From: Cellulomonas marina
Lineage (GTDB): Bacteria > Actinomycetota > Actinomycetes > Actinomycetales > Cellulomonadaceae
Assembly: GCF_900111925.1 (NCBI RefSeq)
Contig: NZ_FOKA01000009.1
Coordinates: forward strand, 62,001-126,000
DNA length: 64,000 bases
Reading direction: 5' to 3'
Shown: positions 21,999 through 32,958 of the stretch, piece after piece
How positions within the stretch are numbered: the first letter of the stretch is position 1
Layout of the letters: each line of letters starts with the position of its first letter
Position numbers and translations under genes: made by a program
Notes under the pieces: model-generated
Told to the model about the DNA's origin: nothing
Seen by the model: the letters and a program-made list of their open reading frames with translations, nothing else
Database searches by the model: none

Positions 21999-23075
21999 GT
22001 GGTCGTGACGGCACCCTCCGCGGGGGCGGCCGGGGCACCCGCCCCGGCCGCCCCCGCGGTGCGCCGCCCGCGGGGGCGTACGGGCCTGCTCGCCGCCGGG
22101 CTGCTGGTGGCGGGGGCGGCCCTGGTCCTCGCTGCCGGGCTGAGCATCGCCGTCGGGGCGCGGGGCGTTCCGCTCGCCGCTGTCTGGACGGCGCTCGTCG
22201 CGCCCGACGGGTCCTTCGAGGCGACCGTGGTGGCCTCCCGGGTGCCGCGGACCCTGCTGGGCCTGCTCGTCGGCGCCGCGCTGGCCGTCTCCGGCGCGCT
22301 CATCCAGGGCCTGACCCGGAACCCGCTCGGCGACCCCGGGCTGCTCGGCGTCAACGCGGGGGCGGCGGCGTCGATCGTCGTCCTCACGGCGGTGGCGGGC
22401 GCGGGGGTCGGGCGCACGCCGTGGGCGGCGGTGCCCGGGGCCCTGCTGGCGGCGGTCGTCGTGCAGCTCGTCGGGTCCGGCGGGGCCCGGGCCGGCCGCG
22501 GCGGGGCGGGCCCGGTGCGGCTCGTGCTGGCCGGCGCCGCCGTCAGCGCCGTGCTCGGCGCCGTCATCCAGGCGGTCTCGCTCGCGGACCCCACCGTCTT
22601 CGACGCCTACCGCGCGTGGGTGCTCGGCTCCCTCGCGGGTCGGGACCCCGCGGTGGTCGGGCAGGTGCTGCCGTTCGTCGCCGCGGGGCTCGTGCTGGCC
22701 CTGGCCTTGGCGCGCCCGCTCGACGCCCTCGCGCTCGGCGACGAGGCCGCCACCGCGCTCGGCCTGCGGCCCGGCACCACACGCGTCCTCGGGCTGGTGG
22801 CCGCGACGCTGCTCGTCGCCGGGGCCGTCGCCGCGGCGGGTCCGATCGGGTTCGTCGGGCTCGCCGTGCCGCACGTCGTGCGGGGCTTCACCGGCCCCGA
22901 CCACCGGTGGCTCCTGCCCTACTGCGCCCTGCTCGGGCCGGTGCTCGTCCTGGCCGCCGACGTCGTCGGCCGGGTGGTCGCGCGGCCGGGGGAGCTGGTC
23001 GTCGGGGCCGTGACGGCGTTCGTCGGCGCGCCGTTCCTCGTCGCCGCGGTGCGACGCGGTCGGGTGGCGGCATGA
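21999..23075 (+). CDS. FecCD family iron-siderophore ABC permease (first)
   Basis: A 358-aa BtuC/FecCD permease. It has a positively charged N-terminus and nine to ten hydrophobic helices. Family marks are SRVPRTLLGLLVGAALAVSG, LIQGLTRNPLGDPGLLGVNAGA and the coupling/cytoplasmic region LGDEAATALGLRPG, ending in PIGFVGLAVPHVVRGFTGPDHR. GTG 21999 (or GTG 22005) is 13 nt after the lipoprotein gene. Its stop overlaps the next start as ATGA. It forms a heterodimer with the next permease. Confidence 0.92.
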   Translation: MVVTAPSAGAAGAPAPAAPAVRRPRGRTGLLAAGLLVAGAALVLAAGLSIAVGARGVPLAAVWTALVAPDGSFEATVVASRVPRTLLGLLVGAALAVSGALIQGLTRNPLGDPGLLGVNAGAAASIVVLTAVAGAGVGRTPWAAVPGALLAAVVVQLVGSGGARAGRGGAGPVRLVLAGAAVSAVLGAVIQAVSLADPTVFDAYRAWVLGSLAGRDPAVVGQVLPFVAAGLVLALALARPLDALALGDEAATALGLRPGTTRVLGLVAATLLVAGAVAAAGPIGFVGLAVPHVVRGFTGPDHRWLLPYCALLGPVLVLAADVVGRVVARPGELVVGAVTAFVGAPFLVAAVRRGRVAA

Positions 23076-24121
23076 GCGCCCTCGCCACGCGCCCGGCCCC
23101 GGCCGACGGGCCCGTCCGCCGTCCCGGGCACGCGACGCGGCGCCGGTCCGTCGCGGTCGGGGTGGGTGCCCTGCTCGTCGCCACCGCCGCGGGTCTCGCC
23201 GCGCTCACGCTGGGCCGCCTCGGCCTCGCGCTGCCGGAGGTCGCGCAGGTGCTCGGCGGCGGCGGGACGCGCATCCAGCGCTTCGTGGTGCTCTCCGACC
23301 GGCTGCCGCGCGTCGCGGTCGGGGCCCTGGCCGGGCTCGCCCTCGGCGTCGCCGGCGCCCTCCTGCAGTCCGTCACCCGCAACCCCCTCGGCAGCCCGGA
23401 CGTCATCGGCCTCGGCTCGGGGGCGGCCGCCGGCGCCGCGGCGGCGGGACTCGTCTGGCCCGGTGCCGTGCCCGTGCCGGTCGGCGCGCTGATCGGGGCC
23501 GGCATCGCCATCACGGCGGTCTTCCTCGGGTCGGGTCGCGGGTTCGCCTCGCCCTTCCGGATGGTCGTCGTCGGGATCGCCGTCGGGGCGATGGCGCTGG
23601 CCTTCGTCGAGACCGCCCTGGCGCGCGCGACCCGCGAGGACGCGCTCGAGGTCGCCGCCTGGATCTACGGCTCGCTCGCGGCGCGCGGCTGGGACGACGT
23701 CCTGCTCGTCGGTGCGGCCGTGGTGCTGCTGCTGCCCGCCGCCCTGGCGCTCAGCCGCCCGCTCGGCCTGGTGGAGATGGGCGACGAGTCGGCCACCGCC
23801 CTCGGCGTCCCCCCGGCGCACGTCCGGACCGCCGGGGTCGTGCTCGCGGTGCTGCTCACCGCGGCGGCGGTGGCCGTCTGCGGGCCCGTGGCGTTCGTCG
23901 CGCTGACGGCGCCGCAGGTGGCGCGGCGGCTGACGCGGGCGGCGGGGCCCGGGCTGGCGGCGGCCGGGTGCACCGGCGCGGCGCTGCTCGTCGTCGCCGA
24001 CCAGGTGGCGCAGCGGGCCGTGCCCGGCACGCCCTACCCGGTCGGCGTGGTGACCGGCGCCCTCGGCGGCGCGTACCTGGCGTACCTGCTGGTGCGGGAG
24101 TGGCGGAGGGCCTCGGCATGA
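23072..24121 (+). CDS. FecCD family iron-siderophore ABC permease (second)
   Basis: A 349-aa permease of the same family as the preceding gene. Visible marks: DRLPRVAVGALAGLALGVAG, LLQSVTRNPLGSPDVIGLGSG, MGDESATALGVPP and PVAFVALTAPQVARRL. It starts at ATG 23072 within the upstream stop, and its own stop overlaps the ATPase start (ATGA), so the operon is tightly coupled. The N-terminal 25 residues are basic and Pro-rich. Confidence 0.92.
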   Translation: MSALATRPAPADGPVRRPGHATRRRSVAVGVGALLVATAAGLAALTLGRLGLALPEVAQVLGGGGTRIQRFVVLSDRLPRVAVGALAGLALGVAGALLQSVTRNPLGSPDVIGLGSGAAAGAAAAGLVWPGAVPVPVGALIGAGIAITAVFLGSGRGFASPFRMVVVGIAVGAMALAFVETALARATREDALEVAAWIYGSLAARGWDDVLLVGAAVVLLLPAALALSRPLGLVEMGDESATALGVPPAHVRTAGVVLAVLLTAAAVAVCGPVAFVALTAPQVARRLTRAAGPGLAAAGCTGAALLVVADQVAQRAVPGTPYPVGVVTGALGGAYLAYLLVREWRRASA

Positions 24122-25005
24122 CGCGGTGGACGGGTGCGACGAACGGCACGACGAGAGGCGCGACGACCGGCACGACGACCGGCACGGCCACGGGTCCGGC
24201 GGGGCGAGCCGCACCCCTCGTCGCGGAGCGGCTGACGCTGGCCTACGACGACCGCGTCGTCGTCCACGACCTGACCCTCGAGGTGCCCGCCGGGTCCTTC
24301 ACCGTCGTCATCGGCCCCAACGGCTGCGGCAAGTCCACGCTGCTCCGGGCGCTGGCGCGGACCCTGCGCCCGCGCGACGGGCACGTGCTGCTGCACGGCC
24401 GCCCGATCGCCGAGCAGCGGCCCAAGGAGGTCGCCCGCCGCCTCGCGCTGCTGCCGCAGAGCCCCGTGACCCCCGAGGCGATCACGGTGGCGGACCTCGT
24501 CGCGCGCGGGCGCTACCCGCACCAGCGGGTCCTGCGGCCGTGGTCGACGGCCGACGCCGCGGCCGTGGGTGCCGCCATGGCCGCCACGGAGGTGGCCGAC
24601 CTGGCCGAGCGGCCCGTGGCCGAGCTGTCCGGCGGCCAGCGCCAGCGCGTCTGGCTGGCCATGGCCCTCGCGCAGGAGACCGACCTCCTGCTGCTCGACG
24701 AGCCGACCACCTACCTCGACATCGCCCACGCGGTCGAGGTCATGGAGCTGCTCGCCCGCCTGCACGAGGAGGGCCGCACGCTCGTCGCCGTGCTGCACGA
24801 CCTCAACCAGGCCGCGCGGTACGCGACCCACCTCGTCGCCCTGCGCGACGGCCGCGTCGTCGCCCAGGGACCGCCGGCGGAGGTCGTGACGGAGGCGCTC
24901 GTCGAGGACGTGTTCGGGCTGCCCTGCCGGGTGGTGCCGGACCCGGAGACGGGCACGCCGCTGGTCGTTCCGCGTCGGCCGGGTCCCCGGCCGGCAGCGG
25001 TCTGA
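24118..25005 (+). CDS. iron-siderophore ABC transporter ATP-binding protein
   Basis: A 295-aa FepC/FhuC-type ATPase. Walker A is GPNGCGKST, the Q-loop LLPQSPVTPEAITV, the signature LSGGQRQRVWLAMALAQ, Walker B LLLLDEPTTYLD and the H-loop VLHDLNQAARY. The first 35 residues are a Thr/Gly/Ala low-complexity tail encoded by short degenerate repeats, absent from most homologues. It is the last gene of the importer operon and converges on the asparaginase gene across 85 bp with no clear terminator. Confidence 0.93.
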   Translation: MTRWTGATNGTTRGATTGTTTGTATGPAGRAAPLVAERLTLAYDDRVVVHDLTLEVPAGSFTVVIGPNGCGKSTLLRALARTLRPRDGHVLLHGRPIAEQRPKEVARRLALLPQSPVTPEAITVADLVARGRYPHQRVLRPWSTADAAAVGAAMAATEVADLAERPVAELSGGQRQRVWLAMALAQETDLLLLDEPTTYLDIAHAVEVMELLARLHEEGRTLVAVLHDLNQAARYATHLVALRDGRVVAQGPPAEVVTEALVEDVFGLPCRVVPDPETGTPLVVPRRPGPRPAAV

Positions 25006-28599: not shown

Positions 28600-30084
<1,485 letters not shown>

Positions 30085-30163
30085 GCTGCGACGCTCCCAC
30101 GGCCCGCCGCCACCCGCCTGCCCGTGGGCCGGACGCCCGTTCAGGGCTGCCACAGCGGCTCGG

Positions 30164-31206: not shown

Positions 31207-31740
31207 GTGACGACGAGCACGACGAGCACCGGTGCGGGTGCTGGCCGGAGGACGGGTGCAGCCGCCGACGTCCTCGTCGAGGAGGTCCCCTGGGACGACC
31301 CGGCGACGGCGCACCTGCGGGCCGAGCAGGAGGCCGAGCTGGCCGCCCGCTACGGCGGCGCGGACCCGGCCGTGGCCGGCGAGGCGGTGCTGCTGACGCT
31401 GCGCCTGCTCGTCGCCGGGGAGCCGGTGGGGTGCGTCGCCGTGCGCGACGTCTCCGCCGAGCACGGTCCGGGGACGGGCGAGCTGAAGCGCCTCTACGTC
31501 CGCCCGGACCACCGGCGGCGCGGGCTGTCCCGGCTGCTCCTGGCGGCGGCGGAGGCGGGGGCCGCCGCGCGCGGCCTGCACCGGCTGGTGCTGGAGACCG
31601 GCACGCGGCAGCCGGAGTTGCTGGCGCTGTACGCGGCGACCGGCTGGACCGCGATCACGCCCTACGGCGAGCACGCGGGTCACCCGATGTCGCGGTGCTT
31701 CGCCAAGCGGCTGACGGGCGGGACTGCTGCGACGGTGTGA
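31207..31740 (+). CDS. GNAT family N-acetyltransferase
   Basis: A 177-aa acetyltransferase using acetyl-CoA; the substrate is unknown. After a Thr/Ser/Gly/Ala tail come the substrate side (LTLRLLVAGEPVGCVAVRD), the acetyl-CoA motif A GELKRLYVRPDHRRRGLSRLL, and LHRLVLETGTRQPELLALYA. GTG 31207 follows the purQ stop by one base. It has no evident role in purine synthesis and may simply share the transcript. Confidence 0.88.
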   Translation: MTTSTTSTGAGAGRRTGAAADVLVEEVPWDDPATAHLRAEQEAELAARYGGADPAVAGEAVLLTLRLLVAGEPVGCVAVRDVSAEHGPGTGELKRLYVRPDHRRRGLSRLLLAAAEAGAAARGLHRLVLETGTRQPELLALYAATGWTAITPYGEHAGHPMSRCFAKRLTGGTAATV

Positions 31741-31791
31741 GTCGGGACCTGGACCCGGGACCTGGGCCTGGTCGGCGCGGCGGCGCGTGGG

Positions 31792-31797
31792 TACGCT
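31792..31797 (+). promoter_or_regulatory. leaderless -10 element of the Cys-Cys leader peptide
   Basis: TACGCT, 6 nt before GTG 31804. The transcript would therefore begin at or within a base or two of the leader start codon. Confidence 0.6.
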
Positions 31798-31803
31798 CGT
31801 CCC

Positions 31804-31833
31804 GTGCTGCTGACCCGGGTGTGTTGTCGCTGA
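31804..31833 (+). CDS. putative cysteine-responsive leader peptide (9 aa)
   Basis: A nine-codon open frame reading MLLTRVCCR then TGA, starting with GTG directly after a TANNNT promoter. Actinobacteria are known to carry short leader peptides beginning MLLTR and ending in consecutive cysteines upstream of sulfur or cysteine genes, where stalling at Cys codons controls the downstream gene. This one has the same start and two adjacent TGT codons, notable because TGT is rare in a genome of this G+C. A GC-rich hairpin follows at 31845-31877. Control of the 31907 gene is inferred. Confidence 0.7.
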   Translation: MLLTRVCCR

Positions 31834-31844
31834 GCTGACACCCC

Positions 31845-31877
31845 CGCGCGCCCGCGGCCACCGACGGCCCTCGCGCG
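31845..31877 (+). promoter_or_regulatory. hairpin between leader peptide and downstream gene
   Basis: CGCGCG (31845-31850) can pair with CGCGCG (31872-31877) and GGCC (31856-31859) with GGCC (31866-31869), with an asymmetric internal loop and a 6-nt loop. It sits 12 nt after the leader stop and could mask or free the GAGGAA ribosome site at about 31892-31897. Confidence 0.45.
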
Positions 31878-31906
31878 CACCCCCGGTCCAGCGAGGAACA
31901 CCCCCG

Positions 31907-32332
31907 ATGGCTGAGCTCCTGCTCGCGTCCCGTCCTGCCGCCCCGTCCCTCCCGGTCGCGTCCGTCGCCCGGACGTCCGCGCCCGCCGTCGTGCTCGAGC
32001 ACGGCCCGGACGTGCCCGACGACGCCGCCCTCGCGCGTCGGGCCGAGGCGCTGCGCGGCACCGCGCCCCGACTCCTGCCCCGTCTCCTGCTCCGGCTGCC
32101 CGTCGTGCTCGTGCCCGACGGGCCGGCCGCCGACGAGCGCATCGCCCGTGCCCGCGCCCTGCACGGCACGACCGACGCCATGGTCGGCGTCGGCTGGGCG
32201 CGCTCGGCGGCCTGGCTGGTGACGACGCCGTCGCGCCTGCGCGACGAGGTCGCCGCCCGCGTGGCCGCGACCGGCGCGGACGACGTCGTGCTCGCCCTCA
32301 CCCCGTCGGCGCGCCGGTTGCTGGCGGCCTGA
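31907..32332 (+). CDS. cysteine-free hypothetical protein under a Cys-Cys leader
   Basis: A 141-aa protein I do not recognise. Its composition is extreme: it contains no Cys, Lys, Asn, Gln, Phe or Tyr and is very rich in Ala, Leu, Arg, Val and Pro. A predicted alpha/beta pattern is visible: LLPRLLLRLPVVLVPDG, then RIARARALHGTTDAMVGVG, AAWLVTTPSRLRDEVAARV and DDVVLALTPSARRLLAA. There is no signal peptide or TM helix. ATG 31907 has GAGGAA 10-15 nt upstream. Absence of cysteine fits a protein that must be made during cysteine shortage. It converges on the pentapeptide gene 26 bp away. Confidence 0.75.
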   Translation: MAELLLASRPAAPSLPVASVARTSAPAVVLEHGPDVPDDAALARRAEALRGTAPRLLPRLLLRLPVVLVPDGPAADERIARARALHGTTDAMVGVGWARSAAWLVTTPSRLRDEVAARVAATGADDVVLALTPSARRLLAA

Positions 32333-32358
32333 CCTCCGGGCCGCAGGGACCCCCGCGG

Positions 32359-32958
32359 TCAGGCGAGCCGGATGCCGAGGTGCTCGGCGAGCAGCGGGGC
32401 CAGGGTCAGCAGGCCGTCGTGCGCCAGGGTCGCACCGCGCAGCCCGGCGACGCCGTCGAGCCGCTCGAGCGCGGCCACGTCCAGCCCCGTGAGGTCGGCC
32501 CCGGCCAGTGACGCCCGGTTGAGGTCGAGGCGCCGCACGCGGCAGTCGACGAGGGTCAGCCGGGACGTCTGCGCCCCGGCGAGGTCGAGGTCGTCGACCT
32601 GGCACCCCTCGAGCCGCACCGCCTCCAGCCGGGCGTCCCGCAGGTTGACGAAGCCCAGTCGGCACCCGCGCAGCGTCACCCGGTCCCACCGGGACCCGTG
32701 CGCGGTCAGCGCCCCCAGCCGCGAGCCCTCCCAGACGGTGTCCCGCCACCCGCCGTCCCTCGCGTGCAGCGCCGTGGCGTGGGAGCGGGTGATGCGGCAC
32801 GCGGCGAGGTCCGCGCTGTCGAGGACCAGCTCGTCGAGCGTGCAGCCGGTCAGCGTGACGTCGAGCCAGCGCGCCCCGGAGGCGTCCTCGCCGCTCAGGT
32901 CCTCGTCCACGAAGCTCTCGTCGTCGAGCAGGTCGTCGGGGACGAGGCGCGCGCTCAC
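32359..32958 (-). CDS. pentapeptide repeat protein
   Basis: A 199-aa protein built from A(D/N)LxX-type pentapeptide units that form a right-handed quadrilateral beta-helix. Clear repeats run from LDVTLTGCTLDELVLDSADL through RVTLRGCRLGFVNLRDARLE and DLDLAGAQTSRLTLVDCRVR to ASLAGADLTGLDV. Some family members protect DNA gyrase from quinolones, but most have no assigned role. GTG 32958 has CAGGCT 7 nt upstream. It is divergent from a GNAT gene, and the space between holds an 11-bp tandem repeat. Confidence 0.88.
   Translation of the reverse strand: MSARLVPDDLLDDESFVDEDLSGEDASGARWLDVTLTGCTLDELVLDSADLAACRITRSHATALHARDGGWRDTVWEGSRLGALTAHGSRWDRVTLRGCRLGFVNLRDARLEAVRLEGCQVDDLDLAGAQTSRLTLVDCRVRRLDLNRASLAGADLTGLDVAALERLDGVAGLRGATLAHDGLLTLAPLLAEHLGIRLA

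Follow-up and report, generated by a model that had tools for sequence, protein, structure and literature searches.

A nine-codon reading frame with two adjacent cysteine codons lies just upstream of a gene for a small protein in the genome of Cellulomonas marina. Both lie in a 64,000-nucleotide stretch of contig NZ_FOKA01000009.1 (positions 62,001 to 126,000 of the forward strand), which is called the window here. The elements of the locus, in window coordinates, are as follows.

31792..31797, + strand: -10-type box TACGCT (TANNNT), by direct reading
31804..31833, + strand: leader open reading frame (ORF) GTGCTGCTGACCCGGGTGTGTTGTCGCTGA, GTG to TGA, MLLTRVCCR* (the asterisk denotes a stop), leaderless-type
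31822..31827, + strand: two adjacent TGT cysteine codons, the proposed sensor
31846..31878, + strand: GC-rich inverted repeat, from the minimum-energy fold and conserved sequence blocks
31893..31898, + strand: GAGGAA, a Shine-Dalgarno (SD)-like site 8 nt 5' of the ATG, by direct reading
31907..32332, + strand: gene with an ATG start for a Cys-free protein of 141 aa, half-size and related to the C-terminal part of NtaA/DmoA-type monooxygenases

The box is separated from the leader by six nucleotides (CGTCCC), and the frame reads GTG CTG CTG ACC CGG GTG TGT TGT CGC TGA, that is, nine codons and a stop. An initial annotation of this DNA had described the hexamer, the spacing and the nine-codon frame, a GC-rich hairpin behind the leader, and a 141-aa gene without Cys, Lys, Asn, Gln, Phe and Tyr. 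All were confirmed in the sequence, the hairpin being present in the minimum-energy fold. Its remark that TGT is rare also holds, as the window genes use 7 TGT and 85 TGC among 92 Cys codons; the reference for codons and composition is a set of 43 window genes chosen by length and codon-position GC. On both strands of the window, the leader is the sole TANNNT-N5-8-RTG ORF of 5-39 codons that contains CC, and 20 mononucleotide block shuffles of the window gave 0 ORFs with a TANNNT box, a start and CC. The sequence TGTTGTCGCTGA occurs a single time in the 3.96 Mb genome. The TANNNT spacing signature predicts that the leader is probably translated without a 5' untranslated region.

The leader and the gene recur together. 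Profile A3, comprising 45 relatives, was searched at a threshold of E <= 1e-12 in 221 genomes of the family Cellulomonadaceae. The short gene is present in 57 of these genomes: 50 of 81 in Cellulomonas, six of seven in genus g4, and one of 19 in genus g2. In a 58th genome (G173), the profile matched only a full-length frame. Of the 57 genomes, 54 have a complete leader region, and all 54 carry an ORF of 8-11 codons downstream of a TANNNT box, at a distance of 6 nt in 40 loci and 7 nt in 14, across three genera. The recurrence of the leader in front of homologues, which the initial annotation had proposed as a check, was thus found in 54 of 57 short-gene genomes. The exceptions are G091, where the contig begins within the leader and CCR* is visible, G076, where the contig begins within the short gene, and G057 (L127), which alone among the short-gene loci has a different ORF (35 codons, four Cys, neither a CCR ending nor a TANNNT box). 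One genome, G055, has the leader without a called gene in the stretch extracted, and the profile did not match. In the 47 Cellulomonas loci, the gene starts 98-105 nt past the leader start.

The 54 leaders comprise 21 distinct peptides, for example MFLSRVCCR, MFSVRVCCR, MSLRKCCR, MFLMQTCCR and MSWSRECCR. Of these leaders, 51 contain CC, including the one in the window, and the peptides end in CCR* or WCR*, with one CCQLS*. The initial annotation had assigned the leader to an MLLTR type, and this claim did not survive. Among the 54 leaders, MLLTR is found in this genome alone, and the conserved part is CC-R-stop. Of the Cys codons, 105 are TGT and 3 are TGC; the latter are additional Cys codons before RVCC in G040, G042 and G093, and the CC or WC positions are always TGT. 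The stop is TAG in G040. In G042, an inserted base together with a substitution shifts the stop, and CC is kept (MFSCRVCCQLS*). The start codon (ATG or GTG), the stop and the first codons all differ between leaders, but the Cys codons persist, a pattern that fits reading of the ORF by a ribosome. The recurrence of the leader in these genomes exceeds chance, and its conservation suggests that the ORF is very probably translated and bears the hallmarks of a cysteine sensor.

Pattern searches covered wider sets of genomes. An 18-nt pattern, CGNGTNTGYTGYCGNTGA, matched in 53 of the 221 family genomes, with 44 matches spelled TGTTGT, all in Cellulomonas; the reversed control had no match in the same genomes. 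The nine matches spelled otherwise look like chance, and the two that were read (L032 and L037) are without the leader architecture. The exact sequence CGGGTSTGTTGTCGCTGA was found in 61 stretches of a collection of 84,980 species. Of these, 25 are titled Cellulomonas, 34 come from other taxa, and two more match Cellulomonas genomes but are titled Cellulosimicrobium cellulans DE0111 and Micrococcales MAG. C. uda and C. gelida are among the carriers. None of six inspected stretches from the 34 of other taxa had the TANNNT-start architecture. At the level of the order, a pattern that includes the start codon matched in 24 of 396 genomes, eight of them Cellulomonas, with one control match. A pattern match in another family of the order (G404, L079) reads MSAIRSCCR* from an ATG.

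The downstream gene has a codon-position GC of 0.85/0.61/0.95. The lack of Cys in its product is not striking alone because nine of the 43 window genes are also Cys-free. Searched alone, the protein had no match in Pfam, no NCBIfam match above noise, and no match to luciferase-like monooxygenases (LLMs). Nine relatives gave weak matches, to Bac_luciferase in five (best 3.6e-4) and to TIGR03860 in four (best 4.6e-6). A comparison by hhalign of the short family with seven full-length members from the genus gave a probability of 98 and an E of 2.3e-13 over 117 columns, spanning positions 235-351 of the 399-column full-length profile. In the genus, the first short-family profile also picked up frames of full-length LLMs (380-541 aa), in most cases at profile positions 43-174. 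The profile comparison indicates that the short protein is the counterpart of the C-terminal third in a full-length LLM, and by this measure the family is homologous to the NtaA/DmoA-type flavin mononucleotide (FMN) monooxygenases of TIGR03860. Three of the seven full-length proteins were scanned and matched TIGR03860 at 1e-81 to 1e-85, two of them above the cut-off; the C. marina genome has no TIGR03860 members above the cut-off. The initial annotation had called the protein one of unknown function; it can be described more closely as a partial relative of these monooxygenases.

The short proteins differ from full-length LLMs in their architecture. The 45 short proteins measure 141-257 aa, as opposed to 372-425 aa in the seven full-length ones, and have their own N-terminal motif (MAQPVL and similar) followed by a linker of variable length. 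A complete LLM enzyme with a full barrel is ruled out, as the N-terminal half is absent and only positions 235-351 are matched. Since that half is missing, the short protein is probably not an oxygenase by itself, but rather a non-catalytic accessory of sulfur starvation or a pseudo-enzyme. A PDB search with a nine-row profile of the short family gave two sub-threshold matches, a riboflavin lyase of the LLM type (E 0.12) and an unrelated entry (0.68), and the 45-row profile gave no match.

The initial annotation also proposed a link to sulfur, and this link has independent support from the full-length relatives. Eight full-length LLM loci were taken, and seven were used (L128, L129, L130, L131, L132, L134 and L135), with L133 from the C. 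marina genome omitted. A SAM-IV riboswitch (RF00634) lies upstream of the full-length gene in all seven, and one ORF of fewer than 90 codons with two to four Cys lies between the riboswitch and the enzyme in all seven, an ORF count that is without a control. This upstream ORF (uORF) ends in TGTCGCTGA in six of the seven loci; the peptide of L134 ends in LTRSCCR*. An SD-like site precedes the uORF in six of the seven, as judged by eye; the uORF of L128 (60 codons, three Cys) has no clear SD. In this arrangement, the full-length loci may possess two sulfur sensors, one after the other. NCBIfam gave no match for the padded leader of the window or for two uORF peptides from full-length genes. In three g4 loci, a 15-codon ORF that contains three Cys and follows an SD lies before a full-length LLM gene; two of the three were scanned for riboswitches, and the SAM riboswitch RF00162 was found in L245 and not in L243. 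RF00634 was not matched in L001 (3.4 kb around the window gene) or in L002, L003 and L009. SAM-IV control of the window gene is rejected, as the 3.4-kb L001 had no Rfam match.

Amino acid composition also bears on sulfur. The seven full-length enzymes contain 0 Cys and 2 internal Met in 2742 residues. Their Lys, Phe and Gln contents are near the window average, and Asn is at 0.32 of it. By composition, sulfur sparing is clear in these enzymes. Sulfur sparing is described for sulfate-starved Rhodococcus in a passage of PMC8557817. The short proteins have 3 Cys and 15 internal Met in 9128 residues, as against about 52 and 91 expected from the window genes, and two of the 3 Cys sit in an apparently frame-disrupted gene (G070).

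From this evidence, we consider it likely that the locus is a cis cysteine-responsive attenuator that controls a miniaturised relative of the NtaA/DmoA-type, sulfur-scavenging monooxygenases. Transcription would start at the GTG of the nine-codon ORF, as the TANNNT spacing suggests, and a ribosome starting there would reach two adjacent Cys codons right before the stop. With ample Cys-tRNA, the ribosome would finish and depart, and the downstream ribosome binding site (RBS) would be kept closed. With scarce Cys-tRNA, a stall on the TGT codons would cover the leader RNA, the RBS would open, and the 141-aa protein would be made. The mycobacterial polycysteine ORFs are the model for this proposed stall-and-open step. 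The ancestor was probably a sulfur-regulated enzyme gene with SAM-IV and a Cys-rich uORF, of which only the Cys sensor would have been retained.

RNA folding was examined in the 47 Cellulomonas loci. The SD-like site is GAGG in 43 loci, GAG in one and AAGG in three. The mean cost of opening the RBS is 11.6 kcal/mol with the leader free and 9.2 with it blocked, the free value being higher in 40 of 47; this contrast is weak because blocking any RNA takes away partners. With codons 2-6 shuffled, the cost is 10.3 kcal/mol, and the real leader is higher in 32 of 47. The folds point to a closed RBS, but the controls are nearly equal. Among 16 of the 47 loci viewed singly, the SD pairs with leader nucleotides 1-15 in nine (probability of at least 0.49) and with nucleotides 16-30 in three. 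Pairing of the 5' part of the leader with the SD is a suggestion from these folds, since the swap and shuffle controls were passed only partly. No terminator-like site was found in 31700-32500 (0 sites), and a classical attenuator with an intrinsic terminator (a hairpin and a U tract) is rejected.

Several observations weigh against cysteine-responsive attenuation. There is no significant conserved RNA fold, as 28 of 100 column shuffles equal the consensus fold. Pairing between the Cys codons and the SD is rejected as a general switch, since its probability exceeds 0.5 in just 4 of 47 loci; its mean is 0.076 as compared with 0.091 for shuffled leaders. When leaders and RBSs were swapped, the own partner was favoured in two of five leader groups only. 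Three of the 54 leaders have WC for CC (TGG for TGT), with the peptides MSWTR[SI]WCR, in G082 (L003), G028 (L004) and G085 (L005). The short family is also low in other residues (Asn at 0.06, Lys at 0.18, Gln at 0.36 and Phe at 0.39 of the window level), so that sulfur sparing is plausible rather than clear in the short proteins. No sulfur gene was recognised among the window neighbours examined, which are purQ and a GNAT acetyltransferase gene upstream and a convergent pentapeptide-repeat gene downstream. A metZ-like motif is absent from the window, although its presence in 17 of the 47 Cellulomonas loci (opposite strand, no more than 1.4 kb past the short gene, within limited flanks) counts in favour of attenuation. 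Of the five cysK-like loci found in the C. marina genome, the three scanned (L148, L149 and L151) have no leaderless-type ORF with at least two Cys.

The strong conservation of the leader could have another origin. The conserved element could be a DNA or RNA site, for regulator binding or a fold, that spells CCR* by accident and is not read by a ribosome as a cysteine sensor. Its nucleotides are nearly frozen, the TGT codons included, and across the 47 loci 23 of the first 32 positions show either no variation or conservation of at least 90%. Yet the start, the stop and the codons ahead of CC differ between loci, with an open frame and a box-to-start distance of 6-7 nt retained in 54 of 54. 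The uORFs of the full-length relatives differ from the leader and are longer, and they contain Cys as well, and the G042 leader retains CC and a stop despite its inserted base. We consider a DNA or RNA site an unlikely explanation. The case of Rho is different, because here cysteine attenuation would be real and would act on transcription, not on translation. The lack of a terminator-like site and of a conserved fold is in keeping with this route, and excerpts of PMC1262725 propose Rho for the Cys leaders of mycobacterial cys operons. The well-kept SD-like site speaks for translational control instead, as does the costlier opening of the RBS with the leader free, a weak point. Attenuation through Rho is a tentative possibility, somewhat on the doubtful side.

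Decay of the gene would be another account, with the short gene as the remnant of a monooxygenase and the leader as a leftover. The N-terminal half is absent, the linker varies, the gene is present in some Cellulomonas genomes and not in all, and in G070 (L026) it is apparently frame-disrupted between the N-terminal motif and the conserved domain. The median ratio of nonsynonymous to synonymous substitution rates (dN/dS) is 0.79 in 973 pairs with dS of 0.05-1, and this value also counts against a functional switch and effector; it may stem from the poorly aligning linker. In the 25 pairs with the lowest dS, however, dN/dS is 0.17-0.48 in 24 and 0.67 in the remaining one. Purifying selection acts in close pairs, and the gene looks real. 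The gene and its leader are also retained in three genera, and we regard decay as quite improbable. Cysteine-responsive attenuation remains the preferred reading. A more speculative extension of it, which we hold with considerable doubt, is that a duplicated gene for a sulfur-scavenging monooxygenase shrank, lost its catalytic half, and had its two sensors collapse into a leaderless nine-codon Cys switch. The product would be a half-barrel, nearly sulfur-free, dedicated effector of cysteine starvation in Cellulomonas and its kin, non-catalytic, for example pairing with LLM enzymes or flavin reductases or regulating them.

The surroundings of the short gene vary among genomes. The full-length LLM gene of the three g4 loci is 5-13 kb away from the short gene in G103, G104 and G108, and in G103 it stands beside a second LLM gene and a DUF1684 gene. 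A gene for a pyridoxal phosphate (PLP) enzyme of Cys/Met metabolism abuts the short gene in G103, a point in favour of cysteine-responsive attenuation, and G104 and G108 have a similar PLP enzyme gene, as judged by eye. In G105 (L246), the neighbourhood of the short gene has metZ-like, rhodanese-like and cysteine-desulfurase-like genes, by eye, together with matches to the SAM-IV and SAM riboswitches. The Trp-Cys leaders of G028, G082 and G085 raise the question of whether the switch senses Trp too. Elsewhere in the window, a DPRP (photolyase-related) gene lies near purQ at 28600-30153 on the - strand, and the region 22001-24000 has a strong AT skew of -0.464 at 81% G+C. Two short tandem arrays were found in 20-26 kb (24137-24186 and 24592-24637), both outside 22001-24000.

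If the proposed reading is true, cysteine control by ribosome stalling occurs, in a very short form, in an actinobacterial group other than the mycobacteria, and a protein family without a function gains a testable condition, namely cysteine or sulfur shortage. It would also mean that a regulator outlived its enzyme, with the Cys sensor kept, half of the enzyme lost, and the gene retained in three genera. The control principle itself is already known. Canestrari et al. in 2020 (Mol Microbiol 114:93) are said to have reported a Cys-responsive action of mycobacterial polycysteine leader ORFs. Among the matches listed for the open PMC literature, titles and abstract beginnings gave none for the leader-gene pair, which is no proof of absence, and none was found for the gene family, the lineage or the miniaturised form. 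Cys-rich leader ORFs before actinobacterial cys operons were proposed in 2005, according to excerpts of PMC1262725, and were seen by ribosome profiling in mycobacteria, according to a portion of PMC4633059. Passages in citing papers (PMC9031893, PMC13236596 and PMC9094748) describe the leaderless polycysteine short ORFs of mycobacteria as Cys-responsive.

Like these mycobacterial ORFs, the window leader is short and leaderless-type, has adjacent Cys codons close to its stop, and precedes a gene with a putative link to sulfur. It differs in belonging to another actinobacterial group, in having only two Cys (one in three genomes) with TGT throughout, and in its downstream family. Like the Cys leaders in the excerpts of PMC1262725, including those of acnes and B. 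longum cbs, it has a run of Cys codons near the stop and no terminator. Unlike the acnes and B. longum cbs leaders described there, which precede genes of cysteine biosynthesis, the leader in the window precedes a half-size LLM relative. The protein family shares with NtaA/DmoA the homology to residues 235-351 of the full-length profile, but is without the N-terminal half and the C-terminal tail, and its best match to TIGR03860 is far weaker than those of full-length proteins. Structures have been solved for relatives of the full-length forms, among them 3sdo, 1tvl, 5tlc and 6ak1. A further parallel in arrangement is with the full-length LLM loci, which also have an ORF with Cys codons upstream; the window locus differs from them in having neither SAM-IV nor an SD-like site before its ORF.
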